Shown: one piece after another, positions 2,161-45,800 of the stretch | Numbering within the stretch: the stretch's first letter is position 1 | Layout: every line of letters starts with the position of its first letter | Origin: Phycisphaerales bacterium | Lineage (GTDB): Bacteria > Planctomycetota > Phycisphaerae > Phycisphaerales > SM1A02 | Direction of reading: 5' to 3' | DNA: 64,000 nucleotides | Assembly (NCBI GenBank): GCA_029242715.1 | Contig: JAQWTL010000025.1 | Location: 1 to 64,000, forward strand | Program-made: the position numbers and the translations under genes | The notes under the pieces: model-generated | Databases searched by the model: none | Told to the model about the DNA's origin: nothing | Seen by the model: the letters and a program-made list of their open reading frames with translations, nothing else

Positions 2161-2185
2161 CAAACAAACGACCCCGGCTCCGAGG
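2161..2185. repeat. 25-bp direct repeat, left copy, flanking the GH7-like gene
   Basis: The 25 bases 2161-2185 (beginning caaacaaacgaccccgg) are identical to 4247-4271 in the same orientation. The left copy forms the first arm of a perfect hairpin; the right copy lacks the second arm. The two copies bracket the GH7-like gene. Confidence 0.85.
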
Positions 2186-2195
2186 AGCCGGGGTC
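2170..2195 (-). terminator. Rho-independent terminator for the GH7-like gene
   Basis: Perfect 12-bp inverted repeat GACCCCGGCTCC / GGAGCCGGGGTC with a 2-nt centre. On the minus strand it is followed by CGTTTGTTTG, a moderate U-tract. It lies ~95 nt past the stop codon of the GH7-like gene, a plausible intrinsic terminator. Confidence 0.65.
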
Positions 2196-2289
2196 GCGTT
2201 CATGTGATCAAAGTGATCAAGTCAATACGGGCTGTTTGGATATGGGTGTTCATCCATAAGGATTCTCCCAACGTCAGCCGATCTTAGAT

Positions 2290-3858
2290 TCAATCGCAAT
2301 CTTCGCCATCGCCCCAGTCTTCGATCACCAAGAGCAGGTCATCGATGTCAATGCAGCCGGAGTTATTAACGTCCGTCAGCTCGAATCCAAGTAAGTCATG
2401 GAATGCCCTCAGATCATCACTGTCCACATCACCATCGCCATCCAGATCAAGTCCGTCATTTGACGAGCAATCAGCACGAATGTGCGGGGTGGTTCCTGTG
2501 GGAGCGGTCCATGGGTTGACCACAAATTGATCTAACATCATCGCACCTGCAGCGCCAATACCACCGTCATTGGGACGTGTGGAGACGGTGCAAACATTCT
2601 TGTCCACCGGATCACCGATCGATGGAAGACAGGTTTCTGTGGCGCCCCATGGGTGTTCGCCTTGGGATTTTGGTCGTGCACTCACAAAGTCGGCCGGGCC
2701 AACAATCCCAACCCCAGAGCCTGCATCGAAGGTTTTGCCCTGAGTGCCCCAGTACATGCACATACCACTCTTCAATGCTTGGCCCAATTCGTGCCAACTG
2801 TCACCGTCTTGCCAATGTTGAGCAGGCGGGAAGGAGCCTGTATCACAATGTGGACAGCAGTAATAAGGAATGTCGTCCTTGTCGATATGGCCAAGAGTGA
2901 TTGTAGTTTGATCTTGGGTCATTTCGCAGTAATAGCTTTGTAGTGATTCGCCATCGTCTGTAGCTTGGAAACCCCAAGTCATTGTGAATGGCAAAGTCGT
3001 GTTGATTGGATAGTCAGACCCTGGACCATAAGCGTGGGTTCTTGCTTTTTCTGAGCTGGGTCCATACGTGAGATTGTCGTTGTAGGCATTGACTGGCCCG
3101 CAATCCGTGACGCCGCCTTGTGGCTCGTAGTCAGTGCCCGTCGGTTCACAGGGGCATCCAGTTTGCACTTGACCAATTCGGAGGCCACATCCGGAAAAAT
3201 CCGTTCCGTCCGAACCCTTGTTTTTATGTAGGGTGCTCGCCAATCCAAATTGATTGCCCTCAAAGAGGTCAATTTCAGTGCAGAATTGATCTGCAAGCGG
3301 TTTGCCCTGAGAAATTGCATCGCAATAGAAATAATCTTCGGCATTGCCAAGCCGTGGGCCGTTATTCAGCTCTGGGCTTGCATGAACGAGAACCAATTCA
3401 CCAAGGCATCCGCAGTCTTCCTCCCATTTTCCGAAATCTACTTCGACAGAAAGTGTCTTTCCAAGAAGACTGAGTGGCTGCATGTACTTGAAAAGGTTAA
3501 TACCTGACCCACCCCCATATGTATATTTCGGACAATCAGCACCCCATGCGGATGGGGGTGATCCAAGCCAGCCCCGAGCACCAACGCCCAATTGTTCCTG
3601 CCCACTCGCGTCTGTGTATGTATTACCAACGCTAACAGACAGCTTGCCGTCTGAAAAGCTGGGGGAATATCCATACACCATGAGAGCGGAGACCTCGTCG
3701 CCCGTGTTTCCGACGAGGACATTATTTTGGCCTGCGTTTGTGATTGTGATACTGCCTTGATTTATGTTTGGGTAGCCTGTACCGCAATCACCATGTGCAC
3801 TCATGCACATGCCCAGCGTTGCCCCGGCGACAACCAGGTAACTTTCAAATCGTTTCAT
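2290..3858 (-). CDS. Secreted glycoside hydrolase family 7-like protein with dockerin-like C-terminus
   Basis: 522 aa. Start ATG 3858 follows GGGGGGAGAA; an in-frame ATG at 3879 has no better site. Signal peptide MKRFESYLVVAGATLGMCMS. Residues 195-200 read E-I-D-L-F-E followed by GN, the GH7 catalytic signature ExDxxE (fungal Cel7: EMDIWEAN): E195 nucleophile, D197, E200 acid/base by analogy, with H211 at the nearby conserved His. Other family-like segments are CGCLGELVLVHAS (148-160), YFYCDA (176-181), YGPGSDYPINTTLPFTMTWG (277-296) and LKSGMCMYW (362-370). Cys-rich throughout, as in GH7. Residues ~464-522 form a dockerin-like pair of calcium loops (DLDGDGDVDSDDL, DVNNSGCIDIDDLLLVIEDWG). GH7 enzymes cleave beta-1,4-glucan and are known almost entirely from eukaryotes. 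Cellulose or a related glucan is the inferred substrate; activity is untested. Confidence 0.72.
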   Translation of the reverse strand: MKRFESYLVVAGATLGMCMSAHGDCGTGYPNINQGSITITNAGQNNVLVGNTGDEVSALMVYGYSPSFSDGKLSVSVGNTYTDASGQEQLGVGARGWLGSPPSAWGADCPKYTYGGGSGINLFKYMQPLSLLGKTLSVEVDFGKWEEDCGCLGELVLVHASPELNNGPRLGNAEDYFYCDAISQGKPLADQFCTEIDLFEGNQFGLASTLHKNKGSDGTDFSGCGLRIGQVQTGCPCEPTGTDYEPQGGVTDCGPVNAYNDNLTYGPSSEKARTHAYGPGSDYPINTTLPFTMTWGFQATDDGESLQSYYCEMTQDQTTITLGHIDKDDIPYYCCPHCDTGSFPPAQHWQDGDSWHELGQALKSGMCMYWGTQGKTFDAGSGVGIVGPADFVSARPKSQGEHPWGATETCLPSIGDPVDKNVCTVSTRPNDGGIGAAGAMMLDQFVVNPWTAPTGTTPHIRADCSSNDGLDLDGDGDVDSDDLRAFHDLLGFELTDVNNSGCIDIDDLLLVIEDWGDGEDCD

Positions 3859-4246
3859 GTCAGTTCTCCCCCCACGCATTGGCGTGGACTATGTGTTCAA
3901 TACAAATCGCAAAGCCATCAGACCACACCGCTTTCGCAGGTGACACCCGATGACTGTCATTCGCAAACGCACCATGGATCTTGGATCCCCATCCCCGTGA
4001 GCCGCCTGTTTGGCGGCGAAACGAGCATCAAAGTTAGCAGGTCTCACTTGCGATCGGCAATCCAATATGGGTATTTACAGGGCTTTACAGGCTTGTTGTG
4101 AGAATCGGCCATTAGAGCCCTTTAAGGAAGGCTTATAGGCATTTCCTTACCGGTGAGCAGCGATGTACAGGGAGTTCTTTCAGGTAGTTTGGTTCCCTCG
4201 CCTCACACCGAGGTGCTCCACTTGCCCAAACGGGCACGTGTTTCCA
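3859..4246. other. Gene-free spacer upstream of the GH7-like gene
   Basis: No ORF with a ribosome site. It must hold the promoter of the GH7-like gene (minus strand), but I see no convincing -35/-10 pair. A 6-bp hairpin GCCGCC-tgttt-GGCGGC lies at 4001-4017 without a U-tract. Confidence 0.5.
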
Positions 4247-4271
4247 CAAACAAACGACCCCGGCTCCGAGG
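4247..4271. repeat. 25-bp direct repeat, right copy (half of a terminator)
   Basis: Identical to 2161-2185. It begins four bases beyond the stop codon of the FG-GAP gene at 4275. It carries only one arm of the terminator hairpin plus the minus-strand T-rich flank, so it can no longer fold. This suggests a recombination end point between the two loci. Confidence 0.85.
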
Positions 4272-4274
4272 GAC

Positions 4275-5222
4275 TTATGGGCAGATGCCCCACGCGTCGA
4301 TCACTTCCAACAGGTCGACAACACCGACGGTGCCGTCACCATTGATGTCGGGAAGGCAGACTGTGTCACACTCATCGCACGATGTACCGGCCATGTATAC
4401 ACCACCGAGATTCCAACACTGACTGAGCGTCAGGATGTCGCACCCCGTGTTTACACAGCAGGCTCCAGTGGTCGCGGGAGTGGGTGAATAGTAGAGATAT
4501 GCGCTGCCGGATCTGGAACCGTTGTCATCGTCGCGATCGGCTCCAATAAGGACCGTGTCGCCGGAGATGGCGGCATCTTGGCCGAAGAATTCGCTGCCCG
4601 CTCCATCTGAGGCAGTGAGTTTCTGTATCTCGCTCCAGGTTCCATCGTCTTGTTGCTGGTAGAGGTAGGCGCTGCCGGAGCTCGATCCATTGTCGTCATC
4701 GTAATAGGCCCCAACCAGTGCAGTGGTTCCAGAGATAGCGACGCTATTGCCGAATGTATCAGCTCCCGAAGCGTCGGAGGCAGTGAGTTTCTGTGCCTCG
4801 CTCCAGGTTCCATCGTCTTGTCGCTTGTAGAGGTAGGCACTGCCAGACTGGCTACCGTTGTCGTCGTCATACGCGGACCCGATGAGGATGGTGTCGTCGG
4901 AGATGGCGACATTTTGGCCGAAGTTGTCATGTTCCGCAGCGTCAGAGGCAGTCAGTTTCTGAACTTCGCTCCAGGTGTCATCACCTAGTAGCTGGTAGAC
5001 GTACACACTGCCTGAGTTCGATCCATTGTCGTCGTCGTAAGCGGCTCCTGTCAGAGCCGTGTTGCCCCAGATCGAGACGTTGTGGCCGAAGTAGTCACTT
5101 TCAGCGGCATCGGAGGCAGTGAGTTTCTGTTCCACGGAGAATTGGCCACCACGCTCCCCAAGCCCGGTGCTTGCGATGCCCAGCGATGCAAAGGCTGCGA
5201 CGATGAATGTGCGGGTGGTCAT
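4275..5222 (-). CDS. Short FG-GAP repeat secreted protein with half dockerin
   Basis: 315 aa. Start ATG 5222 follows AGGGAG and begins the signal peptide MTTRTFIVAAFASLGIASTG; the longer frame to 5315 lacks a signal-like N-terminus. It has only four FG-GAP-like blades (QKLTASD..FGxxVAISG..LIGAxxDDDNG), against seven in the genes near 36-46 kb. A Cys-rich linker (GACCVNTGCDILTLSQCWN) follows, then a single calcium loop DINGDGTVGVVDLLEVIDAWG, i.e. half of the usual two-loop dockerin-like segment. Paralogue of the gene at the left edge. Four blades cannot close a typical seven-bladed propeller, so it may oligomerise or be a shortened copy. Function unknown. Confidence 0.85.
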   Translation of the reverse strand: MTTRTFIVAAFASLGIASTGLGERGGQFSVEQKLTASDAAESDYFGHNVSIWGNTALTGAAYDDDNGSNSGSVYVYQLLGDDTWSEVQKLTASDAAEHDNFGQNVAISDDTILIGSAYDDDNGSQSGSAYLYKRQDDGTWSEAQKLTASDASGADTFGNSVAISGTTALVGAYYDDDNGSSSGSAYLYQQQDDGTWSEIQKLTASDGAGSEFFGQDAAISGDTVLIGADRDDDNGSRSGSAYLYYSPTPATTGACCVNTGCDILTLSQCWNLGGVYMAGTSCDECDTVCLPDINGDGTVGVVDLLEVIDAWGICP

Positions 5223-5327
5223 TGCTTTTCTCCCTGGGTACGGTGCCCCATCTCCAGCGTAACGATGGAGGTGGGCTAAATTCAAAGAGATTTGGTTGAG
5301 AACGCGGAGGGGCACCCATCAGGGGTC

Positions 5328-24723: not shown

Positions 24724-27102
24724 ATGATTCGTATGACCATGTTCTTGTTGCTGATGTTGACTTTGTTGCTGTCCAGGGAATCCTTTGGGCAAGCACGGGG
24801 CAATGAAAGGCAGGCTTGGTATCTGCCGCCATGTCTGCAATCGGAACAAGATTGTTCAATTGATGATCTTGAACGAACATTGGCGGATGGCAGCTTCGTT
24901 CTGCCTGGTGATGGAGTATCGGTAACGTGCTCAAACGGCCAGGAGGCCGGTTGGCGATATGTTGATATTGGATCAGAGCGGCACAGTTTTGATGCGGAGC
25001 CAGGAAGTTGGCTGTACTTCTCCATTGAAGATCTTCCTGCTGGGCCAGCTTTCATTGATGTCTCCGGGCATCAGCGATTTTATGTCAACCGTGAGGCGCG
25101 ATCTTCCCGTCCACAGCAAGCGGGAATGATGAAGTTCCCTGTTGAGTTGCGAGCGGGAGACAACGAGATACTCGTCCATGTGAAGCAAGGGCCGGTCCTC
25201 CTCAAGGTCCAGCCGCTTGCTGAGACGGATGAGACAGTCCGTTTTCTTCAATATGATCGGATTGTTCCCTGGCTTGATGATCTCCAGAACGTGGATGTGG
25301 TCGCATCATTGCTTCTTGTCAATGCTGGCGAACCACTTCATGACTTGCGTGTAGCGACAAGAACCCGATTTGAGCCGATGGTCGAGTGGGCGGATTACCC
25401 GGACGATGCCGTTCCAGGGGTATGGGAGTACGAGTCCATCGATTCCATTCCTGGATGGTCCATGACCAAGATGCCGCTCCGGATCGTTGGGCCACCTCCG
25501 CACAAGCGTTCTGGTTTTCCCTATCCGGTTGACGTCCAGTTGCAGCGTGCTTCCGATGGAGAAGTCATTGCTTCGACTGTTTTCAACATGTCTACTCGAA
25601 ACGTAGGCAATCATGAACTACGAACATGGATTGATGATCTTGGGACGGTTCAGTCCTGCATGGTGTTGCCTCCAGTGGCAGAGAAGGCAGGATCAAGGCC
25701 CACGATCGTGGCGATGCCCTCGGTCCTCAGGAGCATGCATCAGACGGTCTATGCCTATGAGGAAGGCCCTGATGAATTGATCATCGTGCCCAGCACTCGC
25801 CGGATCGGTCTGGGTGGTACCAGCATGGGGCGAGCGAATGTGGATGGAGCCATGGCGCATGTTTGCAAACTTCATCCGACGGATGATCAACGGATCGCGA
25901 TCAATGGATTTGCTGACGCTGGGTTGGATGCGTGGAACATGACCTTGAGGCGACCGGGCGTGTTCACAGGGGTGGTTCCCATAGGAACAGATGTCCAGGT
26001 CATGGAGGACACTCCACTCTGGTCCAATCTGGATGATGTCGACGTGATCTTCCGTCATGGTTTGAAGGATGAAACCGTTGATCCTGGACTCGGCGATCGG
26101 ATTGAACGTGGCCGACGGGATTGTCAGAGTCGGACGCGAATCGATATTCAGCCGGAGTTTGGCCGTTGGTGGGGTGCCACGACGATTTCAGACGCGTCCT
26201 TGGCGGAGTTTCTCTTCGATGAGTCAAGGGAAGGTCCCGACACTTCGGTTATTGAGCTTGTTCAGGATCATGCAACCGAGCCACATGCTGACCATTGGGC
26301 TGTGATCCACCAGCGTGTTGATGTTGCGCGCCCAGCTCGACTCAAGGCTGCCCATGACGAAGGTCGTGCCATGATCCAGACTGAGAATGTCAGGCAACTG
26401 CTTCTGCGAGGTGAGCCTCTTGAGGCAAGAGGATCCCTGGATATTGAAATCGATGGAACATCGCTATCGATTGATTCCGATGTCGGTGAGGTCTGTCTGC
26501 AACAGGATGCAGGCGGGTGGCAGTTTGCCGAGGGTTGTGATCCTTCTGGCAAGAGCCATCTTCGGAGTCATTACGAACATCTCTTCAGCAGGCCACTGCT
26601 CATGGTTCATGGCACTGGTGGCGGCGAAGCCGTTGCACGCGGCAACTGGGCCAAGGCAAGATTCGATGCCGAGCAATTCTGGAGCATGGCAGATGGTGCC
26701 GTTCGTATCGTGTCGGATAAGGAACTGGCTCCTGGGATGCTCGATGGAGTCAACGTGATTCTGTACGGGAACGCTGATACGAACTCGGCCTGGATCGACT
26801 TGATGCCGGACTGCCCGATCAGGGTCCGCACGGGGTCTGTACAGGTTGCTGATCAGACCTGGGAGGGCGACGACCTGGTTGCCATGTTCATGAGGCCACT
26901 GCCTGGCGACCGGCAAGGGCTTGTTGTCGCCATGGGTACTTCAGGAGTACCTGCTTGCCACCTTGCCCAGCACTTGTTGGTCACGGATCCAGCAGCGACA
27001 TTCCCGGATTGGATGATCATGAATCCGTCCACCCTGGGGCAGGCTCCCTTGATGTCGGGTGAGTTTGATCGAAGTTGGGCGATGGCACCTCTGGCAGAGT
27101 AG
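24724..27102 (+). CDS. Secreted alpha/beta-hydrolase-like protein lacking the nucleophile Ser
   Basis: 792 aa. Signal peptide MIRMTMFLLLMLTLLLSRES. The N-terminal half is beta-rich (IDVSGHQRFYVN, ELRAGDNEILVHV). Residues ~366-450 look like a prolyl-oligopeptidase/esterase core: IAINGFADAGLDAWNMTLRRPGVFTGVVPIG aligns with the usual GLSMGG..W..A..P..F nucleophile elbow, but the Ser is Ala397. RHGLKDETVDP (444-454) matches the acid-bearing loop. The C-terminal part (VHGTGGGEAVARGN, VILYGNADTNSAWIDLMPDCPI) resembles that of planctomycete S9-like secreted peptidases. Probably catalytically dead, or it uses another residue. Followed by a nested terminator hairpin. Confidence 0.75.
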   Translation: MIRMTMFLLLMLTLLLSRESFGQARGNERQAWYLPPCLQSEQDCSIDDLERTLADGSFVLPGDGVSVTCSNGQEAGWRYVDIGSERHSFDAEPGSWLYFSIEDLPAGPAFIDVSGHQRFYVNREARSSRPQQAGMMKFPVELRAGDNEILVHVKQGPVLLKVQPLAETDETVRFLQYDRIVPWLDDLQNVDVVASLLLVNAGEPLHDLRVATRTRFEPMVEWADYPDDAVPGVWEYESIDSIPGWSMTKMPLRIVGPPPHKRSGFPYPVDVQLQRASDGEVIASTVFNMSTRNVGNHELRTWIDDLGTVQSCMVLPPVAEKAGSRPTIVAMPSVLRSMHQTVYAYEEGPDELIIVPSTRRIGLGGTSMGRANVDGAMAHVCKLHPTDDQRIAINGFADAGLDAWNMTLRRPGVFTGVVPIGTDVQVMEDTPLWSNLDDVDVIFRHGLKDETVDPGLGDRIERGRRDCQSRTRIDIQPEFGRWWGATTISDASLAEFLFDESREGPDTSVIELVQDHATEPHADHWAVIHQRVDVARPARLKAAHDEGRAMIQTENVRQLLLRGEPLEARGSLDIEIDGTSLSIDSDVGEVCLQQDAGGWQFAEGCDPSGKSHLRSHYEHLFSRPLLMVHGTGGGEAVARGNWAKARFDAEQFWSMADGAVRIVSDKELAPGMLDGVNVILYGNADTNSAWIDLMPDCPIRVRTGSVQVADQTWEGDDLVAMFMRPLPGDRQGLVVAMGTSGVPACHLAQHLLVTDPAATFPDWMIMNPSTLGQAPLMSGEFDRSWAMAPLAE

Positions 27103-27179: not shown

Positions 27180-27520
27180 ACTTATAAAAAAACAGCAAAC
27201 TACCCAAGCAGCCCTTCTTAACAAAGCGGCGCCAGATAACCAAGCTTGCGTGAATTTGACATGTAGACCATGTATGTAGCAAGACGCTCGGGAGGCTTGC
27301 AAAGGAGGCTTGTGGGCCTGATCGGTCCGGCTATCTATACGTAAGGCAATTCATTGCACGGAAAATGCCACTATCAATGTCCTTGTACACATGGGTTTAT
27401 GTCGATTTAGAGATTGAAGCCCTTTCCTTAAACTGGTAACACAGGCAACTTGAAGCGCTTGGCAGGAGTGCCGGGCATCCGTTGATTGCGTTGAGATTTA
27501 CTTGTTTAAGGGGCGATGGC
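27180..27520. other. Upstream region of the first beta-helix/dockerin gene
   Basis: No gene. AT-richer than its neighbours. TTGACA occurs at 27257-27262 but without a matching -10 at 16-18 bp. A long 5' leader is likely, as for the paralogue at 29774. Confidence 0.4.
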
Positions 27521-28975
27521 GTGGTGGGGCGATTAGGAAGAGCATGGAGTCTGATGCTGTTGGCTGGTCTGACCAGTCTGGCGGTTGCCGAGGAGCCTGA
27601 TCCAAATCCAGCTCCTCAGCCTGATGGTACGAACGTCTGGTACGTCGGTAACAACACCCAGTACCCGGTCATCCAGGAGGTTCTGGATGCCTGTGGCGAT
27701 GGGGATGAAATCGTTGTTGCTGAGGGTCTCTATGTCGAGAGTCTCAACATCATTCGAAACGATGTGACCTTGCGTCCCTGGTGTCTACCAGCCGGTGGCG
27801 GTGTTCCTGTACCGCACTGGGCCAATGTGACCTTCTGGAACCCTACTGAGGGTTTTAACAACGCCAATGGATATGCCATCCGAATGACGGGTGGCAACAA
27901 TACCTACGTGGGTCGACCACGTCAGGTTACAGAACTGAGTAACAGCTTCTATTACGCCCCCACGGAGGTACAACCAGGTGAATTCAATCCGGTTGGTCCA
28001 GCTGTTGACGTTGCAATCATTGCACAAGTTACAGATGGCTTCTTGAATCGTAGGGCGATGACATTCTGGAGTCGATCCATCAATAACGTTGCCGTCTATT
28101 CGACCAATGGCGAGGGCACGTTCCAGGACTGCGACATCACCTCAGAAAACGGTTTCGGTGGCGGTGCTATTCTGACCGGCGATGCCAATACGACTCAGTT
28201 CGTGAATTGCAACTTCAATTCAACATTCGCAACTGGTAATCCTTTGAAACTGTCAGATGGCACATTTGGTCCCGAGGTAAATGTCGTGACCATCACGGGT
28301 GGTGCGCCACAGTTCATGGAATGCGAATTCACGAATAACCAGGCAGGAACCTTTGGAATCATCTATGACATGGATAGTCGATCTCATTGGGATCAATGCA
28401 AGTTCATCGGCAATGTCTGCCCTGCATCAAACGGCACCTATACCGCGATCAGAAGCACTCCAACCTTCATGAGATCAACGTTTCTCGCGAATTCTTCTTT
28501 GCGTGGCACGGTCTACTGGGACGCTACGGACGTGACAGGTCCTGACATGATGAACTTCAACAACTGCAACTTTGAGAACTGCATCACGGCCGACTTGATG
28601 TATGGCGGTGCTGTGATGGTTGATTGCGATGACTGTGCAGGTAATGCACCGTTGGTAACGCTGTCCCAGTGCGGCTTCCGTGGCAACCAGGGACGACCCA
28701 ACAGCACAGGATGGGATCAGTACGATATTTGGTCGCCCTATTTTCCCAAGTTCCGAATAGGTTCAGATCTCGACCTGACCAAGGTTGTGGTAATCACAGA
28801 CATGGATGCTGTCATTCCAGGTGATGTCAATGGTGACGGCCAGGTTGATACAGATGATATTGAGTCGCTCCATGCTGCTCTGGGCACCTGTCGGTATGAC
28901 GGTGATTACAACGGTGAGATCACGATTGATGATCTACTGGGCGTACTCGCGTCATACGGTAGTCCTTGCCAGTGA
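27521..28975 (+). CDS. Secreted beta-helix protein with dockerin-like C-terminus (paralogue 1)
   Basis: 484 aa from GTG 27521, which has AAGGGG 7 nt upstream; a TTG at 27482 is the longer alternative. Signal peptide RAWSLMLLAGLTSLAVAEE. The mature part starts PDPNPAPQPDGTNVWYVGNN. QYPVIQEVLDACGDGDEIVVAEGLYVE is the entry to a right-handed parallel beta-helix (pectate-lyase-like fold), followed by Asn-ladder turns with many Cys (FQDCDITSENGFGGGAI, FVNCNFNSTFATGN, FMECEFTNNQAG). The last ~60 residues hold two calcium loops, DVNGDGQVDTDDIESLHAALG and DYNGEITIDDLLGVLASYG. About 60% identical by eye to the protein at 29774. No catalytic residues recognisable; a structural or binding surface protein is inferred. 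Confidence 0.85.
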   Translation: MVGRLGRAWSLMLLAGLTSLAVAEEPDPNPAPQPDGTNVWYVGNNTQYPVIQEVLDACGDGDEIVVAEGLYVESLNIIRNDVTLRPWCLPAGGGVPVPHWANVTFWNPTEGFNNANGYAIRMTGGNNTYVGRPRQVTELSNSFYYAPTEVQPGEFNPVGPAVDVAIIAQVTDGFLNRRAMTFWSRSINNVAVYSTNGEGTFQDCDITSENGFGGGAILTGDANTTQFVNCNFNSTFATGNPLKLSDGTFGPEVNVVTITGGAPQFMECEFTNNQAGTFGIIYDMDSRSHWDQCKFIGNVCPASNGTYTAIRSTPTFMRSTFLANSSLRGTVYWDATDVTGPDMMNFNNCNFENCITADLMYGGAVMVDCDDCAGNAPLVTLSQCGFRGNQGRPNSTGWDQYDIWSPYFPKFRIGSDLDLTKVVVITDMDAVIPGDVNGDGQVDTDDIESLHAALGTCRYDGDYNGEITIDDLLGVLASYGSPCQ

Positions 28976-29589: not shown

Positions 29590-29773
29590 TGGATGTGTGA
29601 TGTAAATAGTCTTGCGAATGGATGTTTGGCCGGTTATTTATGACTCTTTGTATTTGGGGGGGGAAGCGTGTTCCCTCCGAGTTCTGAGTCGCTGAGACCA
29701 GCCGCGGTGGTTGGCTTGGCAATCACGAGCAAGTGGGTGATTCAGTTTGAGCACCCCGAGAGGAGAACGAGGA

Positions 29774-31258
29774 ATGAATATCGTTAAAACAACCGCCGCC
29801 ATTGCGATCTTCGCATGTGCAGGCACCGTCATGGGTGAGCAGCCGGATCCAAATCCGCGTCCAAACGCCGATGGCACAAGCACCTGGTACGTCGGAAACA
29901 ACACCCAGTACCCAGTCATTCAGAACGTCCTGAACGCCTGCGCTGATGGTGATGAAATCGTCGTGACCGCAGGCCTCTACGTTGAGAGCCTGGAGATCAC
30001 TCGAAACGACGTCACCCTTCGTCCTGCCGCACTTGGTACTCAGAGTACCGCAGCATGGGCTGATGTCACTTTCTGGAACCCGACCGAAGGTTTCAACAAT
30101 GCCAATGGTTATGCCATCCGCATGACCGGTGGCAACAACACCTATGTAGGTCGTCCCCGCCAGATCGAGCAGTTGGCAAACGGTCTTGAGGTTCCAAACT
30201 CAGTTCCTGTCCTGAACAACACAAACCAGGATCCCGACTCATGGACAGAGCAGCAGACCCAAACGCCAGCGCAGGTCAGCACTGGCAGCGGCGACGTTGC
30301 TCTTACGTTCTGGAGTCGCTCCATTGATAACGTCGCTGTGTACTCCACAGACGGCACTGGTACTTTCGAAGACTGCTACATCACCTCCTCCAACGGTTTC
30401 GGTGGTGGTATCATCTGCTCCGGTTCTGCCAACACGACCCAGTTCGTTGGTTGCAACGTGAACAGCACATTCGCAACAGGCAATGCTCTGGCACTCGCTG
30501 ACGGAAGCACTGGTCCTGCTTGTAACGTCGTCACCATCACTGGTGGTGCACCTCAGTTCATGGAATGCAGCATCAATGACAACATGGCTGGTTCAATCGG
30601 CATCGTCAATGATTCCGGTAGCTCAAGCCGCTGGGACATGTGCACGTTCCAAGCAAACATGGCCCCTGCATCCGAAGGCATGTACTCCTGCGGAAGCAGC
30701 ACGCCTGATTTCATGCGTTGCACTTTCAGTGGCAATACTTCCAATCTCGGTACAGTCTACTGGGATGCAACTGGCCAGGCTGGTCCTGACATGATGAACT
30801 TCAACCGCTGCAACTTCACTGACAATGACACTGCCAACAATGGTGGTGCTGGTCAGATGTATGGCGGCGTTGCTTATGTTCGTAATGCAACTGCTGGCGG
30901 CGCTCCACTGATCAGCTTCTCCGCTTGCGGTGCAGCTACGAACAACAGTGCTGCAGCTCCTGCTACATCAGCTGAATATGGTCTTATGCCTGGTGATATC
31001 GATTCTGGTTGGTTCCCACGCTATCGCATCGGCGATGACTTCCTTCTGGGTGACGCTACCGCATGGACGGCTATTCAGGGCACGCCTGGCACCAGCACTC
31101 CTGGTGACATGAACGGCGATGGCGCTGTCGACGCTTCAGATCTTGATGAGATGCACGGCGTCCTGGGTACCTGTCACTACGATGGCGACCTCAGCGGCAG
31201 CATCAACATCGAGGACCTCCTCGGTGTACTCTCGGTGTACGGCGGTACCTGCAACTGA
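29774..31258 (+). CDS. Secreted beta-helix protein with dockerin-like C-terminus (paralogue 2)
   Basis: 494 aa. ATG 29774 has the strong site GAGAGGAGAACGAGGA; the frame opens at 29747. Signal peptide MNIVKTTAAIAIFACAGTVMG. Same plan as the gene at 27521: WYVGNNTQYPVIQNVLNACADGDEIVV, right-handed beta-helix turns, then DMNGDGAVDASDLDEMHGVLG and DLSGSINIEDLLGVLSVYGG. Codon choice is strongly skewed (Asn almost always AAC; Gly GGT/GGC). With the excellent ribosome site, long leader and powerful terminator this suggests very high expression. A major cell-surface or extracellular-matrix protein is inferred. Enzyme activity not evident. Confidence 0.87.
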   Translation: MNIVKTTAAIAIFACAGTVMGEQPDPNPRPNADGTSTWYVGNNTQYPVIQNVLNACADGDEIVVTAGLYVESLEITRNDVTLRPAALGTQSTAAWADVTFWNPTEGFNNANGYAIRMTGGNNTYVGRPRQIEQLANGLEVPNSVPVLNNTNQDPDSWTEQQTQTPAQVSTGSGDVALTFWSRSIDNVAVYSTDGTGTFEDCYITSSNGFGGGIICSGSANTTQFVGCNVNSTFATGNALALADGSTGPACNVVTITGGAPQFMECSINDNMAGSIGIVNDSGSSSRWDMCTFQANMAPASEGMYSCGSSTPDFMRCTFSGNTSNLGTVYWDATGQAGPDMMNFNRCNFTDNDTANNGGAGQMYGGVAYVRNATAGGAPLISFSACGAATNNSAAAPATSAEYGLMPGDIDSGWFPRYRIGDDFLLGDATAWTAIQGTPGTSTPGDMNGDGAVDASDLDEMHGVLGTCHYDGDLSGSINIEDLLGVLSVYGGTCN

Positions 31259-36648: not shown

Positions 36649-36723
36649 ACTAAAAAGCAGCCCTCTGCACTTTGGCAGAGGGCTGCATCAGTTCATTTAT
36701 GCAGGCATGTTTACTAGAGGCAC
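36649..36723. repeat. 75-bp identical 3'-end block, copy A
   Basis: Identical over 75 bases to 38594-38668. It spans the last codons of the FG-GAP gene, its stop and its terminator. Perfect identity, in contrast to the diverged coding regions, indicates recent duplication or gene conversion. Confidence 0.88.
36652..36686 (-). terminator. Terminator of FG-GAP gene 36714-38288
   Basis: 12-bp perfect stem GCAGCCCTCTGC / GCAGAGGGCTGC with a 6-nt loop, followed on the minus strand by five T. Confidence 0.92.
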
Positions 36724-38288
36724 AAACCCCATTCGCCGATCACGAGCAGCAAGTCGTTGACACCCACGGTGCCATCACCATCAACATCGGCGGGGCAGTC
36801 CGCGTCTGGAACGCAGTCGTCCCAGCCGCCGATGACCGCGAGGATATCGTTGACGTTGATGGTGCCATCGCCATTGGTGTCGGGGCATTCACATTCATCG
36901 GGGATGCCATTGCCGTTGGTGTCCTCAGAGGTACCGAAGGCGATGTCATCAATATCGCAGATGCCGTTTTCGTTGCAGTCGATCAGATCTGGAATATTGA
37001 AGATAGAGGCGCTGCCGGAATTGCCTCCGTTGTCATCATCTGCATAGGCCCCAACCAGGGCGGTGGTTCCCGAGATGGCGACGGAGTAGCCGAAGTAGTC
37101 AGTGCTTTCACCATCGGCGGCCAGGAGCTTGGCGGTTTCAAGCCAGCTGCTGTCTTGTTGTTGCTTGAAGATGTAGGCGCTGCCGGAGTAACTTCCGTTG
37201 TCATCATCGCCATAGGCCCCAACCAGGGCGATGGTTCCCGAGATGGCAACGGACCAGCCGAGGAAGTCCTTGCTTTCACCATCCGAGGCCAGGAGCTTTG
37301 CCGTCTCCAGCCAGGTGCCATTTTCTTGTTGCTCAAAGATGTAGGCGCTGCCGGAGTAGTCACCGTTGTCACCATCTCTATGGACTCCAACCAGGGCGGT
37401 GGTTCCTGAGATGGCAACGGAGTAGCCGAACCAGTCATTGCTTTCACCATCGGAGGCCAGGAGCTTGGCAGTCTCCAGCCAGCTGCCATCTTGTTGTTGC
37501 TCGAAGATGTAGGCGCTGCCGGAGTTGAGCCCGTTGTCATCATCGTAACAGGCCCCAACCAGGGCGGTGGTTCCCGAGATGGCAACGGAGTAGCCCAAGC
37601 GGTCGTTGCTTGCACCATCCGAGGCTGTGAGCTTGGCGGTCTCCAGCCAGGTGCCGTCTTGTTGCTGCTCGAAAATGTAGCCGCTGCCGGAGTTTGATCC
37701 GTTGTCACCATCTTCATAGGCTCCAATCAGGACGGTGGTTTCCGAGATGGCGACGGAGTAGCCGAAGTAGTCAGAGCTTTCTCCATCGGAGGCCAGGAGC
37801 TTGGCGGTCTCCAGCCAACTGCCGTCTGGTTGTTGCTCGAAGATGTAGGCGCTGCCGGAGTTTGTTTCGTTGCCGTCGCCGCGATAGGCCCCAACCAGGG
37901 CGATGGTTCCCGAGATGGCAACGGAGTTGCCGAAGAAGTCAGTGCTCGCACCATCGGAGGCCAGGAGCTTGGCGGTCTCCAGCCAACTGCCGTCTGGTTG
38001 TTGCTCAAAGATGTAGGCGCTGCCGGAGTTTGATCCGTTGTCATCATCTAAAGAGGCCCCAACCAGGGCGGTGGTTCCCGAGATGGCGACGGAGTAGCCG
38101 AGCCAGTCATTGCTTGCACCATCGGAGGCCAGGAGCTTGGCTACTTGCTCAGGTTCACAGTTGATGTCATCGTCAGCCATGGCAGCTGCTGCCGTGGAAC
38201 ACACATAGAACATCATCAGCAGAACAAGAAGCGAGTGGCGTGAAGAGCGAACTAAAGGTGAGGCTGTCATGCATGAACTCTTTGACAT
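36714..38288 (-). CDS. Seven-blade FG-GAP propeller protein with dockerin-like C-terminus
   Basis: 524 aa; ATG 38288 or 38270. Signal helix HSLLVLLMMFYVCSTAAAAMA. Exactly seven ~57-residue blades (AKLLASDG-x2-S-D-x-FGYSVAISGTTALVGA-x5-DDNG-x-NSGSAYIFEQQ-x-DG-WLETAK), the number needed to close one integrin-like propeller, with DxDNG calcium loops. Blades are highly alike in DNA as well. A Ca-binding spacer DCNENGICDIDDIAFGTSED follows, then CPDTNGDGTINVNDILAVIGGWDDC and CPADVDGDGTVGVNDLLLVIGEWGLCL. First of three tandem relatives on this strand. Probably an exported calcium-dependent binding protein; ligand unknown. Confidence 0.88.
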   Translation of the reverse strand: MSKSSCMTASPLVRSSRHSLLVLLMMFYVCSTAAAAMADDDINCEPEQVAKLLASDGASNDWLGYSVAISGTTALVGASLDDDNGSNSGSAYIFEQQPDGSWLETAKLLASDGASTDFFGNSVAISGTIALVGAYRGDGNETNSGSAYIFEQQPDGSWLETAKLLASDGESSDYFGYSVAISETTVLIGAYEDGDNGSNSGSGYIFEQQQDGTWLETAKLTASDGASNDRLGYSVAISGTTALVGACYDDDNGLNSGSAYIFEQQQDGSWLETAKLLASDGESNDWFGYSVAISGTTALVGVHRDGDNGDYSGSAYIFEQQENGTWLETAKLLASDGESKDFLGWSVAISGTIALVGAYGDDDNGSYSGSAYIFKQQQDSSWLETAKLLAADGESTDYFGYSVAISGTTALVGAYADDDNGGNSGSASIFNIPDLIDCNENGICDIDDIAFGTSEDTNGNGIPDECECPDTNGDGTINVNDILAVIGGWDDCVPDADCPADVDGDGTVGVNDLLLVIGEWGLCL

Positions 38289-38593: not shown

Positions 38594-38668
38594 ACTAAAA
38601 AGCAGCCCTCTGCACTTTGGCAGAGGGCTGCATCAGTTCATTTATGCAGGCATGTTTACTAGAGGCAC
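38594..38668. repeat. 75-bp identical 3'-end block, copy B
   Basis: Identical to 36649-36723; see that copy. It covers the 3' end and terminator of the 38659-42591 gene. Confidence 0.88.
38597..38631 (-). terminator. Terminator of FG-GAP gene 38659-42591
   Basis: Same 12-bp stem and 6-nt loop as at 36652-36686, followed by T5 on the minus strand. Confidence 0.92.
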
Positions 38669-41600
38669 TCGCCCCATTCGCTGATGATCAGCAGAACATC
38701 ATTGACACCCACGGTGCCATCGAGGTCGACATCGGCGGGGCAATCATCATCTGGCGGGCAGTCGCCCCAGGCGTCGATCACGGCGAGGATGTCATTCACA
38801 TCGACGGAGCCGTCACCATTGGTATCGGGGCAGTCGCACGAGTCGTAGGCGACATTACCGCCGAGGTCTTGCCAGTTGCCTCCTGAGATGTCGTTGAAAT
38901 CATGGCCGCACAGAGTGGAGTCCTGGAGGGAGACCATGGAAGATTCGGATACGCCCCAGATCTGACCAACGCTGGCCAGCCCGGTGTTGTCTTCAAACTC
39001 ACATTGATTCATGGTGACGAGGATGGTGTCTTCCAGGCCTTGTTCGCCGATGTGGAAGGCGCCTCCCAAGCCTGCATGGTTGTATTCGAATCGAGTGTTC
39101 CGCAGGTCAACGATTGCGTTGAATGCCGCCAATCCACCACCACCACCGGAGAGAGGAGGGTGTGCTTGCGTGGCAGTATTGGTGGAGATCAGGCAGTTCA
39201 TGAATTCAACGGGGTCACCGTTGACTGAACTTCTATTGATCGCGAGGCCACCACCGCCGCCATTCACGGACTCGTTGCCCCTGAAGTGGCAGTTCTCAAG
39301 CAAGGGTGCGCCAGCAACCACGTACAGGCCACCACCGCGAGCGGCGCGGTTGGCCACGATGTCACAGTTGCGGATCGTGGGAGCGGCATTGGCGATCAGG
39401 AGTCCGCCTCCACGCCAAGTAACATCACCGCCCGTCATGGAGAACCCGTCGACAACGGTTTCCCGGCTTTGTTGATTGACGATGCTCAAGGCGGTGGCGT
39501 CGGTATTGCCAAGAATAAATGTGGCTTCTGATCCCACCTCGGAAACAAGTACAACGGGATGTGTCGGAAGAACGACCGGACCCAGGTAGACTCCAGGGCT
39601 CACCAGGATCGTCGAGCCTGATACCGACAAGTCCAAGGCCGACTGGATGTCCTCAAACATGGCGCTTCCATCAGTCGCTACGGTGATCACGAAGTTCGTG
39701 TCACACTCATCAGGGATGCCATCGCCGTTTGTATCCGGTGAGTGACCACTGGCGAGATCGCAGGAGTCTGGTACGCCATTGTTGTTGCAGTCAAGTTCAA
39801 GACCCTGCTCGATCTCATAGTGATCCGGGATGAGGTCACTGTCGCAGTCTGTCTCACAGGTATCGGGGATGCCATTCGAGTCGACATCGAGATAGAGGCC
39901 ATCAGCGATGTCGCACGAGTCCAATGCGCCGTTGCCATCGCAGTCGACGCTGAGGCCTGAGGCGATATCCAACTCATCGCAGATCCCGTTGAGGTTGCAA
40001 TCGTCCTGGCCGGCACTGTTCGCTGGCGGCACGGTGAAGACTGAGACTTCAGTGAACAGGAAGTCGTTCATAAAGCCGATGGCAATCTGGTTGCCGGATA
40101 AATCGACTCGAGGAGAGGGCATCCAGTCTACGGGCAGTTCAGGTCGTTTGAAGATCTCGATCTCGTTCCACTGGTCATCTTCGAAGCGGAACAGGTGGAC
40201 TCGTCCCTGTTCAACATCGGAATCATCCGGCCAGTTGTAATTGATCCCTGACGAAACCGCTATCAAGTCACCGCTGATTCTGACGGCATAGCCGAGCCCT
40301 CGGGTTTTCGGCTCCTGTGATTCGAGAGCCTGCTCCGGTGCCCAGAGTCCACCGGTACGACGATAGACAAGGGCATGATTCACATCCAAACTGTGAGCTC
40401 GCCCAACAACAGCGACATCGCCTTCCAGGTCAACGCTGTCTCCCAGCACCAAGCCTCCGGTTGGCAGTTGCTGAGTTTCAATCCAGTCCTCCCCGTCGTA
40501 TTCGAAGATCCATGCACCGGAACTCAGGCTCCCCACAATGACGGTGTTGCCGTCGATGGCCACATCCGTTCCAAACCATTCAGTTGGTTCACCCAGCGTT
40601 TGAACCAGAGTGGTCTCGTGCAACCAGGTCGATCCAAAGCGGCGGTAGACACGGACTCCAGGCATATCCACATCGGATCCCACGACGGCCACGTCGCCCG
40701 AGATCGACACGCTGAGGCCGTAATACCACTCTCCTTGTTCATCGAAGGTTGACTCCACATTCCATTGACCGCCTTGGCGGCGGTAGATAGTTGATCGTCC
40801 CCCGGCCCCAGTGGTTGAGCCGACGATCACTGTGTCTCCGGAGATATCCAATGACTTTCGCGGCCACCACAACGAGCTTTCGTCATCGTCGAATAATCGA
40901 GTGGCCTCGTGAATCCATTGCCCCTGTTCTCGGTGGAAGAAGTGGACGTTGAACGTGTTGTGTGGGGGATCGACATTGGTATCCAGGACAGCGGCAATAT
41001 CGCCGGAAATCGCAAGATCAAGTCCGGTGGCATACCCGCCATCACCCAGATTCCCGTCGTACCCGAGATCTTGCTCGAAAGTTGAGCACAACAAAAGAGG
41101 GCATTCATCCGGGATACCGTTGCCATCGGCATCCTGGCTGGTGCCATCGGCGATGTCGCAGTCGTCGGGAACGTTATTGGCATTGCAGTCCTGACTCAGG
41201 CCGGACTGAATATCCAGATAATCACAAATGCCATTGTCGTTGCAGTCCTGATCTATGGAGTTTGTGGACAAGGATGTCAGGTAGGCGCTACCGGAACTGT
41301 TGCCGAAGTCATCATCACCGGGCATTCCGATGATGAGATCATCACTGGCCAGGCAGACTGAAGATCCGAAGCCATCCTCAAGCTCACCATCGGCGGGGGT
41401 GATGATGGTGGTCTCCAACCAGTCATTCCCTGAAGTTCGCTGGAAGGTGTAGACAGATCCTGGACCAAGGTTGCTGTCCATGATGCTTGGGGCAGCCACG
41501 ATGGCATAATCGCCATCCACAGATACAGATCTGCCGAAGTAGTCATCTTCCTGGGCATTTGAGGCGGTGAGTTTGTCGACCTGTAGCCAGGTGCCGTTGT

Positions 41601-42591
41601 CATCTTGTTGAAAGACATATGCAGAGCCAGTTCGCTTCAGGCCCGGTTGATTCGAGTAGAAGGCACCTACGAGTGCGGTCTCGTCGGAGAGACTGACGCT
41701 GAAGGCGAACTGATCGTAAGACTCGCCATCGGAGGCAGTGAGTTTGGCAGACTGGAGCCAGTTTCCGTCGTTTTGTTTGCTGAAGATGTATGCACTGCCC
41801 GAGTAGGAACCGTTGTCATCATCGTAAGGCGCTCCAATGAGAACGGTAGTTCCTGAGATATCGACGGAAGAGCCGAGGCTCTCCCAATGATCAGCATCTG
41901 AAGCCGTGAGCTTGGCGGTTTCCAGCCAGGTGCCATCTGGTTGCTGCTCGAAGATGTAGGCACTGCCTGAATTGTCTCCATTGCCATTATCGTTATTGGC
42001 TCCGATCACCGCGGTCATGCCGGAGAGGGCGACGGAATGGCCGAATCGTGCATAGCTCCCACCATCCGAAGCCGTGAGCTTGGCGGTCTCCAGCCAGGTT
42101 CCATCCTGTTGTTGCTTGAAGATATAGGCGCTGCCGGATGATGATCCGTTGTCATCATCGCCAATGGCCCCAACCAGGGCGGTATCACCATCGACGCTGA
42201 TCGAGCGTCCGAAGTCGTTATTGCCAGCCTGGTCGGATGAAGTCAGTTGTCCGGTTTCCGTCCACTGCCCGCTCCAGTTGCGTGCGTAGGTGGTGACGAC
42301 ACCGGTGGCACCGCTTGAAGTCGAGGGGGCGCCAACCATGGCGGTGTCGCCCGAGATGCTGACAGAAGATCCGAACGCACTTCCTTGAGTGTTGTTGCTC
42401 GAGGGCAGTTTGAATGGGCAGGAGGCCAGGCTTGCCATCGATGTCTGCGCTACCAATGACGTCAGGCCAAGCAGGAGCAGGGTTCGTGGAAAGTGTTTTT
42501 GAGTACGGAACGATTCGGGCATGTTCGTCGCCTTTTGCATGTTGTGTGAAAGTTCGGGAACCAGTTCACACTCACCTCTGGAAAAAGACAT
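38659..42591 (-). CDS. Giant double-propeller FG-GAP, beta-helix and dockerin-like protein
   Basis: 1310 aa. ATG 42591 has GAGGAG at 6 nt; ATG 42522 would give a more compact signal peptide (PRTLLLLGLTSLVAQTSMA). Domain order: propeller 1 with seven FG-GAP blades (~60-440); Ca-binding DCNxNGIxD repeats; propeller 2 with seven more diverged blades (~505-850, e.g. KSLDISGDTVIVGST); a second run of DCDxNGxxDxCD repeats (~855-960); right-handed beta-helix (VITVATDGSAMFEDIQSALDL.., GGGLLIANAAPTIRNCDIVAN); dockerin-like pair ending VNDVLLIISEWGECL. The plan resembles a modular adhesin. Middle gene of the tandem array. Confidence 0.88.
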   Translation of the reverse strand: MSFSRGECELVPELSHNMQKATNMPESFRTQKHFPRTLLLLGLTSLVAQTSMASLASCPFKLPSSNNTQGSAFGSSVSISGDTAMVGAPSTSSGATGVVTTYARNWSGQWTETGQLTSSDQAGNNDFGRSISVDGDTALVGAIGDDDNGSSSGSAYIFKQQQDGTWLETAKLTASDGGSYARFGHSVALSGMTAVIGANNDNGNGDNSGSAYIFEQQPDGTWLETAKLTASDADHWESLGSSVDISGTTVLIGAPYDDDNGSYSGSAYIFSKQNDGNWLQSAKLTASDGESYDQFAFSVSLSDETALVGAFYSNQPGLKRTGSAYVFQQDDNGTWLQVDKLTASNAQEDDYFGRSVSVDGDYAIVAAPSIMDSNLGPGSVYTFQRTSGNDWLETTIITPADGELEDGFGSSVCLASDDLIIGMPGDDDFGNSSGSAYLTSLSTNSIDQDCNDNGICDYLDIQSGLSQDCNANNVPDDCDIADGTSQDADGNGIPDECPLLLCSTFEQDLGYDGNLGDGGYATGLDLAISGDIAAVLDTNVDPPHNTFNVHFFHREQGQWIHEATRLFDDDESSLWWPRKSLDISGDTVIVGSTTGAGGRSTIYRRQGGQWNVESTFDEQGEWYYGLSVSISGDVAVVGSDVDMPGVRVYRRFGSTWLHETTLVQTLGEPTEWFGTDVAIDGNTVIVGSLSSGAWIFEYDGEDWIETQQLPTGGLVLGDSVDLEGDVAVVGRAHSLDVNHALVYRRTGGLWAPEQALESQEPKTRGLGYAVRISGDLIAVSSGINYNWPDDSDVEQGRVHLFRFEDDQWNEIEIFKRPELPVDWMPSPRVDLSGNQIAIGFMNDFLFTEVSVFTVPPANSAGQDDCNLNGICDELDIASGLSVDCDGNGALDSCDIADGLYLDVDSNGIPDTCETDCDSDLIPDHYEIEQGLELDCNNNGVPDSCDLASGHSPDTNGDGIPDECDTNFVITVATDGSAMFEDIQSALDLSVSGSTILVSPGVYLGPVVLPTHPVVLVSEVGSEATFILGNTDATALSIVNQQSRETVVDGFSMTGGDVTWRGGGLLIANAAPTIRNCDIVANRAARGGGLYVVAGAPLLENCHFRGNESVNGGGGGLAINRSSVNGDPVEFMNCLISTNTATQAHPPLSGGGGGLAAFNAIVDLRNTRFEYNHAGLGGAFHIGEQGLEDTILVTMNQCEFEDNTGLASVGQIWGVSESSMVSLQDSTLCGHDFNDISGGNWQDLGGNVAYDSCDCPDTNGDGSVDVNDILAVIDAWGDCPPDDDCPADVDLDGTVGVNDVLLIISEWGECL

Positions 42592-42840: not shown

Positions 42841-45800
42841 CTACTCACAAGTACCCCATTCGCCGATCACCAGCAGCAAGTCGTTGACGTCCACCACATC
42901 ATCACCATCGACATCGGCGGGGCAGTCCTGATCAGGAACACAGTCGCCCCAGGCATCGATCACCGCGAGGATGTCGTTCACATCAACCAAGCCGTCACCG
43001 TTGGTGTCGGGGCATTCGCACTCATCCGGGATGCCGTTGTTGTTGGTGTCCTCGGAGGTGCCGAAGGCGATATCGATGAAGTCCGGAACGCTGTTGTCAT
43101 TGCAGTCCGGTTCGCATTCATCGGGCAGACCATTGAGGTTGAAGTCGTTACTGGTGCCATCCGTGATGTCGCAGAAGTCCGCGATGCCATTGGGCTGGCA
43201 GTCGGCGTAGCCTTCCTCGCACTCGTCGTACAGGCCATTGGCATTGCAGTCATTCAGCACGCCTGAGGTGGCATCACATTCATCCGGGATGCCATTGCCG
43301 TTGCAGTCCTCGCTGGCACCTGACTCGATATCGCAGAAGTCGTCATGGTTGTTGCCATTGCAGTCAAGGTAGCCAGCCTCGCATTGATCGTAGAGGCCAT
43401 TGGCATCGCAGTCCTCCAGTACGCCGCTCTGTTCATCACAGGTATCCGGGATGCCATTGCCATTGCAGTCCTCGCTCGTGCCATCATCAAGATCACACCA
43501 GTCCGGAATGCCATTCGCATTGCAATCTTCCTCAAGGCCCTCTTCGATCTCGTAGTCATCCGGCAGGCCATCGCCATCACAGTCGATGTCGCATTCATCC
43601 GGAACGCCATTGCCGTTGAGGTCCGTGCTGGTGCCGTCGGTGATATCACAGGCATCGCCGATGCCATTCTCGTTACAGTCCTCGCACTCATCCGGGATAC
43701 CGTTGCCATCACAATCCTCGGAGTTGCCTAACTGGATGTCCAGGTAGTCCGGCAGGCCATTGTCGTTGCAATCGGGCTTGCAATCGTCGGGTACCCCATT
43801 CTGGTTGAAGTCGTTTGAGGTTCCATAGACGTTGATGTCACACCAGTCGGGGATGCCGTTCTCGTTGCAATCCGGTTCAATCCCATCGGCGATCTCGCAG
43901 GAATCAAGAACTGAGTCACCATCACAGTCGAGATCCGGATTCTCAGAGATCTGTGTGAAGTCACACGTGCCATCGTTGTCGCAATCCTTACCGAAGAGAT
44001 TTCCGCCAAGATCATCCCAAGAGCCCAGGATGTCATCGGGTGTATTGGCGCAGAAGCCGGAGTCGGCAATCGAGAGGTCCCCCCCCAGATTGGTCAGTCC
44101 GCCACCCGGTGAGGAGGCTACATTGTTCAGGAAGTTGCACGCTTCTATGTTCAGGTTGCTGTCGTTGCCAATCAGTCCACCACCGGTGAAGCTTGACGTG
44201 TTCTCCAGGAAGTCGGTTCTGATCAGCGAGATCGCAGCGTCTTTCGCAGCCATGCCGCCACCGCTGCCATTGAAGGCATCGGTGCCGTTGGCATTATTGG
44301 CTTCCAGCAGACAGTTGTTGAGTTGAACCGGATCTCCACTGCTGTGGATGCCCTCGATCCTGATGCCGCCGCCTCGCAGTGCCAGGTTGCCCAGGAACTG
44401 GCAGTCTTCCATGATGGGAGCGCCCTGGTTGATCCAGGCACCACCTGTCTGGTTGGCCAGGAAGATGCAGTTTCGGATCGTGGGTGCCGATTGAATCACC
44501 TGCAGGCCACCACCGAGGTAGGCATCGCCTCCGGTAAGGGTGAAGCCTTCCAGCAGAGTATCAGCGGCATGGCCTTGCCCGATCCGGATGACCGCTTTGT
44601 AGTCGTCGCCGGTGATGATGGTGGACTCGGGGCCGTCGACGGAGATCAGTTGAATGGCATGATCGGGGAAGACCAGCGAGCCGTCATAGGTTCCCGAGGC
44701 GACCTGGATGGTGGCGCCGGGGAGCGCGAGATCGATGGCGGGTTGGATCTGGTTCAACAGCCCGGTGCCATCGGTCGCGACGGTGATCACGTAGGAAGGA
44801 TCGCATTCATCGGGGATGCCATCACCATCACCATCGGGCGAAGTGCCGTTGGCGATATCGCAGGAGTCGGGAATGGTGTTTCCGTTGCAGTCCAGTTCGG
44901 TGCCCTGTTCGATCTCGTAGTCATCGGGCACGAGATCGCCATCGCAATCTTCTTCACACGCATCGGGAATACCATCGAGGTCGACATCGGCGTACAGACC
45001 ATCGGCGATGTCGCATTCATCTGGAACACCATTGCCATCGCAATCCAGGCTGTAGCGAGCGGCTAAATCAAGTTCATCACATATGGCATTACCGTTGCAA
45101 TCGACGGCATCGATGCCATTGACGACGGCAAACATGTAAGCGCTGCCGGAGTCTGTTCCGTTGTCGTCATCCCTATAGGCCCCAATCATGGCGGTGGTTC
45201 CCGAGGTGGCGACGGAGTCGCCGAATTGGTCATCGCTTGCACCATCTGAGGCGATGAGCTTGGCAGTCTCGAGCCAGAAGCCGTCTTCCTGTTGCTCGAA
45301 GATGTAGGCGCTGCCGGATTTTTCTCCGTTGTCATCATCCCAGAAGGCCCCAACCAGAGCGGTGGTTCCCGAGATGGCGACGGATATGCCGAACCAGTCA
45401 CCCCCTGCACCATCCGAGGCCAGAAGCTTGGCGGTCTCCAGCCAAGTTCCGTCATCTTGTTGCTCGAAGATATAGGCACTTCCGGATGAGCTTCCGTTGT
45501 CATCATTGCCATAGGCTCCAACCAGAGCGGTGGTTCCCGAGAGGGTGACGGGGTAGCCGAAGTTGTCAGACTCTGCACCATCTGAAGCCAGAAGCTTGGT
45601 GGTCTCCAGCCAAGTGCCGTCTTCCTGTTGCTCGAAGATGTAGGCGCTGCCGGATGAATCTCCGTTTTCATCATCTAATCGGGCCCCAACCAGAGCGGTG
45701 GTTCCCGAGATGGCGACGAACTCGCCGAAGAAGTCAACGGCTGCCCCATCCGAGGCCAGAAGCTTGGCGGTCTCAAGCCAACTGCCGTCTGGTTGTTGCT

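Follow-up and report, generated by a model that had tools for sequence, protein, structure and literature searches.

Does a planctomycete encode an enzyme of glycoside hydrolase family 7 (GH7)? The question is raised by a gene on the minus strand of a stretch of 64,000 nucleotides (in the following, the window) from a bacterium of the order Phycisphaerales. PMC7571853 describes GH7 from fungi and other eukaryotic kingdoms, and in prokaryotes it has other families, e.g., GH48, take the role of the cellobiohydrolases. No report of a bacterial GH7 enzyme was among the matches listed for the open-access literature, and the word GH7 is absent from PMC5352709, PMC5673643, PMC4807772 and PMC12175321. 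We propose that the protein is a secreted, divergent member of GH7, or the nearest sister of this family, in a bacterium, a reading to which we assign a probability of roughly 0.7. Together with a second bacterial protein described below, with which it shares about 30% identity and in which the catalytic residues are kept, it would give GH7 a bacterial foothold; the pair would also supply a distant outgroup for the GH7 tree and an enzyme scaffold of bacterial source.

An open reading frame of 529 aa runs on the minus strand from 3879 to 2290, and the plus strand read from 2290 in frame 1 contains stops. Within this open reading frame the ATG at 3879 is followed by a second in-frame ATG at 3858, from which the protein begins MKRFESYL. 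The second ATG is the likelier start because it is immediately preceded by the purine-rich stretch GGGGGGAGAACTGAC and because it opens what by eye is a Sec-type signal peptide; the protein is probably secreted. The original prediction, which let the gene end at 3858, agrees with this start and left out the strand. The features of the locus are collected in the table.

Features of the GH7-like locus (positions of the window; residue numbers count from the ATG at 3858)
Feature	Position	Strand	Remarks
Intrinsic-terminator-like hairpin, 13 pairs, downstream of the GH7-like gene	2168..2197	-	
25-bp direct repeat, copy	2161..2185	-	Overlaps the right arm of the terminator-like hairpin
GH7-like gene	2290..3858	-	522 aa from the probable start, ATG 3858
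C-terminal dockerin-like tail, two EF-hand-type calcium loops	2305..2451	-	Pfam and matches in the same genome
GH7-like catalytic domain, 431 aa	2500..3792	-	Pfam PF00840, E = 1.6e-5; hhalign against four solved GH7 enzymes, E = 9e-9
YGPGS segment	3016..3030	-	Aligned in register with YGPGS of Cel7A
His211	3226..3228	-	11 residues after E200; aligned in register with H228 of Cel7A
Catalytic motif CTEIDLFEGN with E195, D197 and E200	3253..3282	-	Putative nucleophile E195 and acid/base E200, by homology
Probable Sec signal peptide, MKRFESYLVVAGATLGMCMSAHG	3790..3858	-	By eye: basic start, hydrophobic core, small residues

The relationship to GH7 rests on profile comparisons and on the residues that these bring into register. 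The Pfam profile of GH7, PF00840, matches the whole protein with E = 3.8e-5 (23 bits, in two stretches) and the 431-aa domain with 24.2 bits, both short of the curated cut-off of 27, and GH7 is the sole enzyme family matched at E ≤ 10. The profile search that had been suggested with the original prediction thus returned a GH7 match, albeit one under the cut-off. Four solved GH7 enzymes (1cel, Cel7A, and 1eg1, EG I, both from Trichoderma reesei; 1a39, EG I; 6su8) were aligned, and hhalign of this alignment against the window domain as a single sequence gave a probability of 95.7 over 211 columns. In the control the score of 68.1 stood against a best score of 28.4 among 150 shuffles and of 8.8 for the reversed protein. 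When 79 open reading frames of at least 250 aa, drawn from the window and from seven other loci, were ranked in this way, the GH7-like gene came first (68.0), the second bacterial gene scored 45.4 and the next one 28.0. NCBIfam and PHROGs gave no match, and the full-length 529-aa protein, by phmmer against the PDB, hit no GH7 chain at E ≤ 10; neither did a profile of both bacterial proteins (hmmsearch) hit a GH7 chain in the PDB. AlphaFold2 models, computed in two runs from the single sequence without an alignment, reached a pLDDT of 31.2 and 33.8, too low for either model to be informative about the fold.

The sequence elements from which a GH7 enzyme had been predicted are all there. Glutamate E195, aspartate D197 and glutamate E200 have the predicted spacing and are followed by GN; the histidine said to follow the motif is H211, 11 residues beyond E200 as in Cel7A; and the YGPGS..TT..FT segment is present as YGPGSDYPINTTLPFT, of which YGPGS and the T..F strand align to GH7. 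The "many Cys" amount to 17 within residues 31-460 (529-aa numbering). Searched as degenerate DNA, C-x-E-x-D-x-x-E-[AG]-N occurs in the window a single time, at 3253-3282 on the minus strand, and in none of 100 shuffles. The motif E-x-D-x-x-E is common to clan GH-B, which comprises GH7 and GH16. Beyond it, the +11 His, Y-C-D, C138-G139, the positions of C172 and C210, YGPGS and the T..F core strand (Cel7A numbering) are aligned, so that the protein is like the GH7 enzymes in all of these features; with EGN rather than EAN its motif resembles that of EG I (1eg1). Considering the Pfam and hhalign scores, the latter far above those of the shuffles, and the catalytic triad and the histidine in register, we regard the homology of the protein to GH7 with high confidence. 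The assignment to GH7 proper as opposed to a sister family, on which the sub-threshold Pfam score bears, is less certain than the homology itself.

The protein also differs from the known enzymes in several respects. It is 23-27% identical to the four solved GH7 enzymes and, unlike these, has an insertion before YGPGS. The part preceding the equivalent of Y82-G83 comprises about 40 residues in the window domain and about 80 in Cel7A, most of whose cysteines in this part are missing from the window domain. Cysteines align with C138, C172 and C210 of Cel7A, those corresponding to C176 and C209, which in Cel7A form a disulfide, are both missing, and the others are without reliable alignment. Glutamine Q175 is replaced by isoleucine. 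In the stretch with W367 and W376 of Cel7A there is only one tryptophan, which one alignment places at W367 and two at W376. In place of a fungal cellulose-binding module the window protein has the dockerin-like tail. A short N terminus is also found in 8pof ("Putative glycosyl hydrolase family7", 321 aa), presumably RsSymEG1, a small endoglucanase of GH7 from a protist of the termite gut. Ahead of the position that aligns with residue 71 of EG I it has 30 residues, i.e., about 40 N-terminal residues fewer, which is comparable to the window protein. Unlike the window protein, which matches EG I weakly (23.5 bits), 8pof matches EG I with E = 2.9e-48.

A second related gene is present in a genome from another genus of the same taxonomic family (G018, locus L059), where it was found with a profile of the window domain and the four solved GH7 enzymes (E = 1.6e-7 per genome; 397 genomes of the class). 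Its product is 598 aa long and by eye starts with a signal peptide; the motif reads EIDLMEAN, a His follows at +11, YGPGS is present, and the protein has a dockerin-like tail of its own. BLASTP against the window domain gave 57.8 bits (E = 2e-13 in a single comparison, 28% identical across 326 columns), the overall estimate of the identity between the two being about 28-33%. Compared with the GH7 profile the second protein has a probability of 75 and E = 2.5e-5, weaker than the window protein, and in the shuffle control it scored 45.1 versus a best of 26.9 among 150 shuffles; Pfam GH7 did not match it at E ≤ 10. Its gene is surrounded by genes for a GH25 protein, seryl-tRNA synthetase and methyltransferases, unlike those in the window. 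A covariation of disulfides in the second protein was considered and dropped, the two alignments disagreeing on its cysteines.

Further relatives were sought in samples of genomes that overlap. A profile with both bacterial proteins recovered the gene itself and the second gene in 2 of 181 genomes of the taxonomic family and, among 382 genomes of the phylum, the same two plus a stretch with an internal stop in one further genome (G255, E = 0.0066). With the profile of the window domain and the four GH7 enzymes, the 397 genomes of the class yielded, besides these two genes, one weak stretch with three stops. The 431-aa domain as query matched 6 of 392 genomes of the phylum, namely its own and five with weak stretches, of which the one inspected (L025) was chance-like; in the 181 genomes of the family it found its own gene and one chance stretch with four stops. 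With the full-length query 18 of 61 genomes were matched, everywhere except in the gene itself confined to the C-terminal part (residues 424-529). PF00840 matched 8 of 392 genomes at E ≤ 0.1, all under the cut-off, and is too insensitive when used alone since it missed the gene of the window itself (E = 0.122). Five other genomes of the genus, among those listed, gave no match. In a collection of 84,980 species a scan for close relatives returned eight pattern matches, of which none was confirmed, and a scan with the motif pattern returned seven loci, none of them GH7 on translation; the latter result is weaker than it appears because the pattern requires a Cys two residues before the first Glu, where the second gene has a Ser, so that this gene would have escaped it. 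The scans for close relatives found none in viral contigs, plasmids or phages, and further viral scans gave, in turn, no match, 51 unconfirmed matches, one chance open reading frame and no match.

The two proteins could instead represent a new family of clan GH-B, sister to GH7 and with a substrate of its own, e.g., an algal or bacterial glycan. This reading would accommodate the Pfam score below the threshold, the deviating N-terminal part and tryptophan region, a host genome without a GH5 or GH3 match, and a tree of only six sequences that unites the bacterial pair with 100% support and sets it apart by long branches from the four solved GH7 enzymes. The +11 His, YGPGS, TT..FT and Y-C-D, however, match GH7 and lie beyond the clan-wide motif, and a Pfam match to GH16 was not found at E ≤ 10. 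We therefore consider a sister family a serious possibility, though an unlikely one.

If the protein is a divergent GH7 enzyme, as we prefer to think, how did its gene get into a bacterium? In a comparison of 21 genes of the window it ranks last both in GC3 (0.489; next 0.507) and in the correlation of its codon usage with that of the rest (0.655; next 0.732). Overall G+C content does not single it out in this way: it has 0.514, above the 0.507 of one gene and close to the 0.515 of another. The deviant codon usage and GC3 fit an acquisition by transfer without proving it. Transfer is the probable origin of the gene, a microbial eukaryote being the simplest source, and fusion to a local tail would have followed. 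That the two bacterial proteins instead survive from an ancient bacterial line of GH7, which split off before the known eukaryotic enzymes, appears quite improbable to us; if true, a eukaryote-only cellulase family would have a prokaryotic root or would have taken part in an ancient exchange between domains. In the tree of six sequences the placement of the bacterial pair among the solved GH7 enzymes has 28-31% support, i.e., it is meaningless.

The counterparts of E195 and E200 in Cel7A have the roles of nucleophile and acid/base. By homology, E195 would attack the anomeric carbon and E200 would act as acid/base, D197 and H211 would tune the two glutamates, and a beta-glucan would be cut with retention of configuration. 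A two-step retaining mechanism of GH7 is described in PMC8987026, which also names an E217Q mutant. Because of the shorter N-terminal part, the loss of C176 and C209 and the single tryptophan, the cleft is predicted to be more open than in Cel7A, and the enzyme would more likely cut internally in soluble or amorphous beta-1,4- or mixed-linkage glucan than act as a processive cellobiohydrolase. Our best guess from the sequence is that the protein is a retaining endo-beta-glucanase, the substrate also being a guess. Calcium is probably bound by the tail, which may keep the enzyme attached to the cell surface. In the host genome neither GH5 (PF00150) nor GH3 (PF00933) was matched at E ≤ 0.001. 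A cellulose-utilising pathway is therefore not evident, and it may be that uptake proceeds differently or that the substrate is something other than cellulose.

The long branch in the tree, the additional calcium tail and the conserved residues that are missing, Q175 and one of the two tryptophans among them, would also be expected of a protein that has kept the fold, lost catalysis and binds sugars at the cell surface. To this explanation we give very little credence: both glutamates, the aspartate and the histidine are kept in two bacterial proteins that are only about 28-33% identical, which points to selection for catalysis.

Besides the putative endoglucanase gene, those scanned genes of the window that were recognised by Pfam (methylmalonyl-CoA mutase, YgbB, FtsK, LepA and carboxyltransferase) are ordinary bacterial genes. 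A chimeric contig or eukaryotic contamination, as could be suspected from the deviant GC3 and codon usage and from a draft genome in 46 contigs, is extremely improbable, since the gene lies uninterrupted between bacterial genes on a contig of 127 kb, its tail shares up to 76% identity with other tails of its own genome, the terminator and the sequence just 3' of the gene are found again on contig C45, behind another gene with such a tail, and a related gene exists in a second genome. The gene thus looks like a native resident of the genome. Three large open reading frames elsewhere in the window (24724-27102, 27482-28975 and 29747-31258; 792, 497 and 503 aa) matched no Pfam family at E ≤ 1e-5.

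The gene is flanked on both sides by the 25-bp direct repeat, the second copy being located at 4247-4271; the other arm of the hairpin is present only at the copy at 2161. A 24-bp core of the repeat has one further occurrence in the genome, again on contig C45 behind the other tailed gene. A reading of the flanking repeats as those of an integron cassette was rejected, the repeat being part of the terminator-like hairpin and found also behind this other gene.

The end of the protein had been predicted to be dockerin-like, which is an apt description of a C terminus with a pair of calcium-loop repeats, as in type I dockerins. Unlike type I dockerins, the tail stays below the Pfam cut-offs (EF-hand_6, E = 3e-4; Dockerin_1, PF00404, E = 0.18 and 12.5 bits where 22.9 are required), and it is found on several unrelated proteins. 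Its five best matches in the same genome are 68-76% identical, and including these at least 12 matches besides the gene itself reach E ≤ 0.001, a lower bound as 24 of 87 candidates were scored. Similar tails are carried by FG-GAP, GH18-like and unclassified proteins, the module being common in the host genome and its relatives. Cohesin (PF00963) was not matched at E ≤ 0.01 in the host genome, the one genome searched, which is 96.7% complete. Since the module is present on many proteins of the genome and a cohesin was not found, the tail does not imply a cellulosome, and a cellulosomal reading was rejected.

Within the window, FG-GAP_2 repeat proteins are encoded at 4275-5315, 36714-38288, 38659-42591 and 42841-46380, all on the minus strand, and three of these four, when scanned, ended in a calcium-loop tail of the same type (those at 4275, 36714 and 38659). 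By eye, the region from about 1 to 1910 has the repeat look of the FG-GAP_2 proteins. On contig C12 of the same genome a protein (L054:2438-3775) has half a tail module not at the C terminus but near the N terminus; the roughly 380 aa after it match nothing in Pfam at E ≤ 0.1. A GH18-like protein (PF00704, E = 2.6e-8), encoded on contig C8 (L053:3374-4585), carries a tail resembling that of the GH7-like protein.
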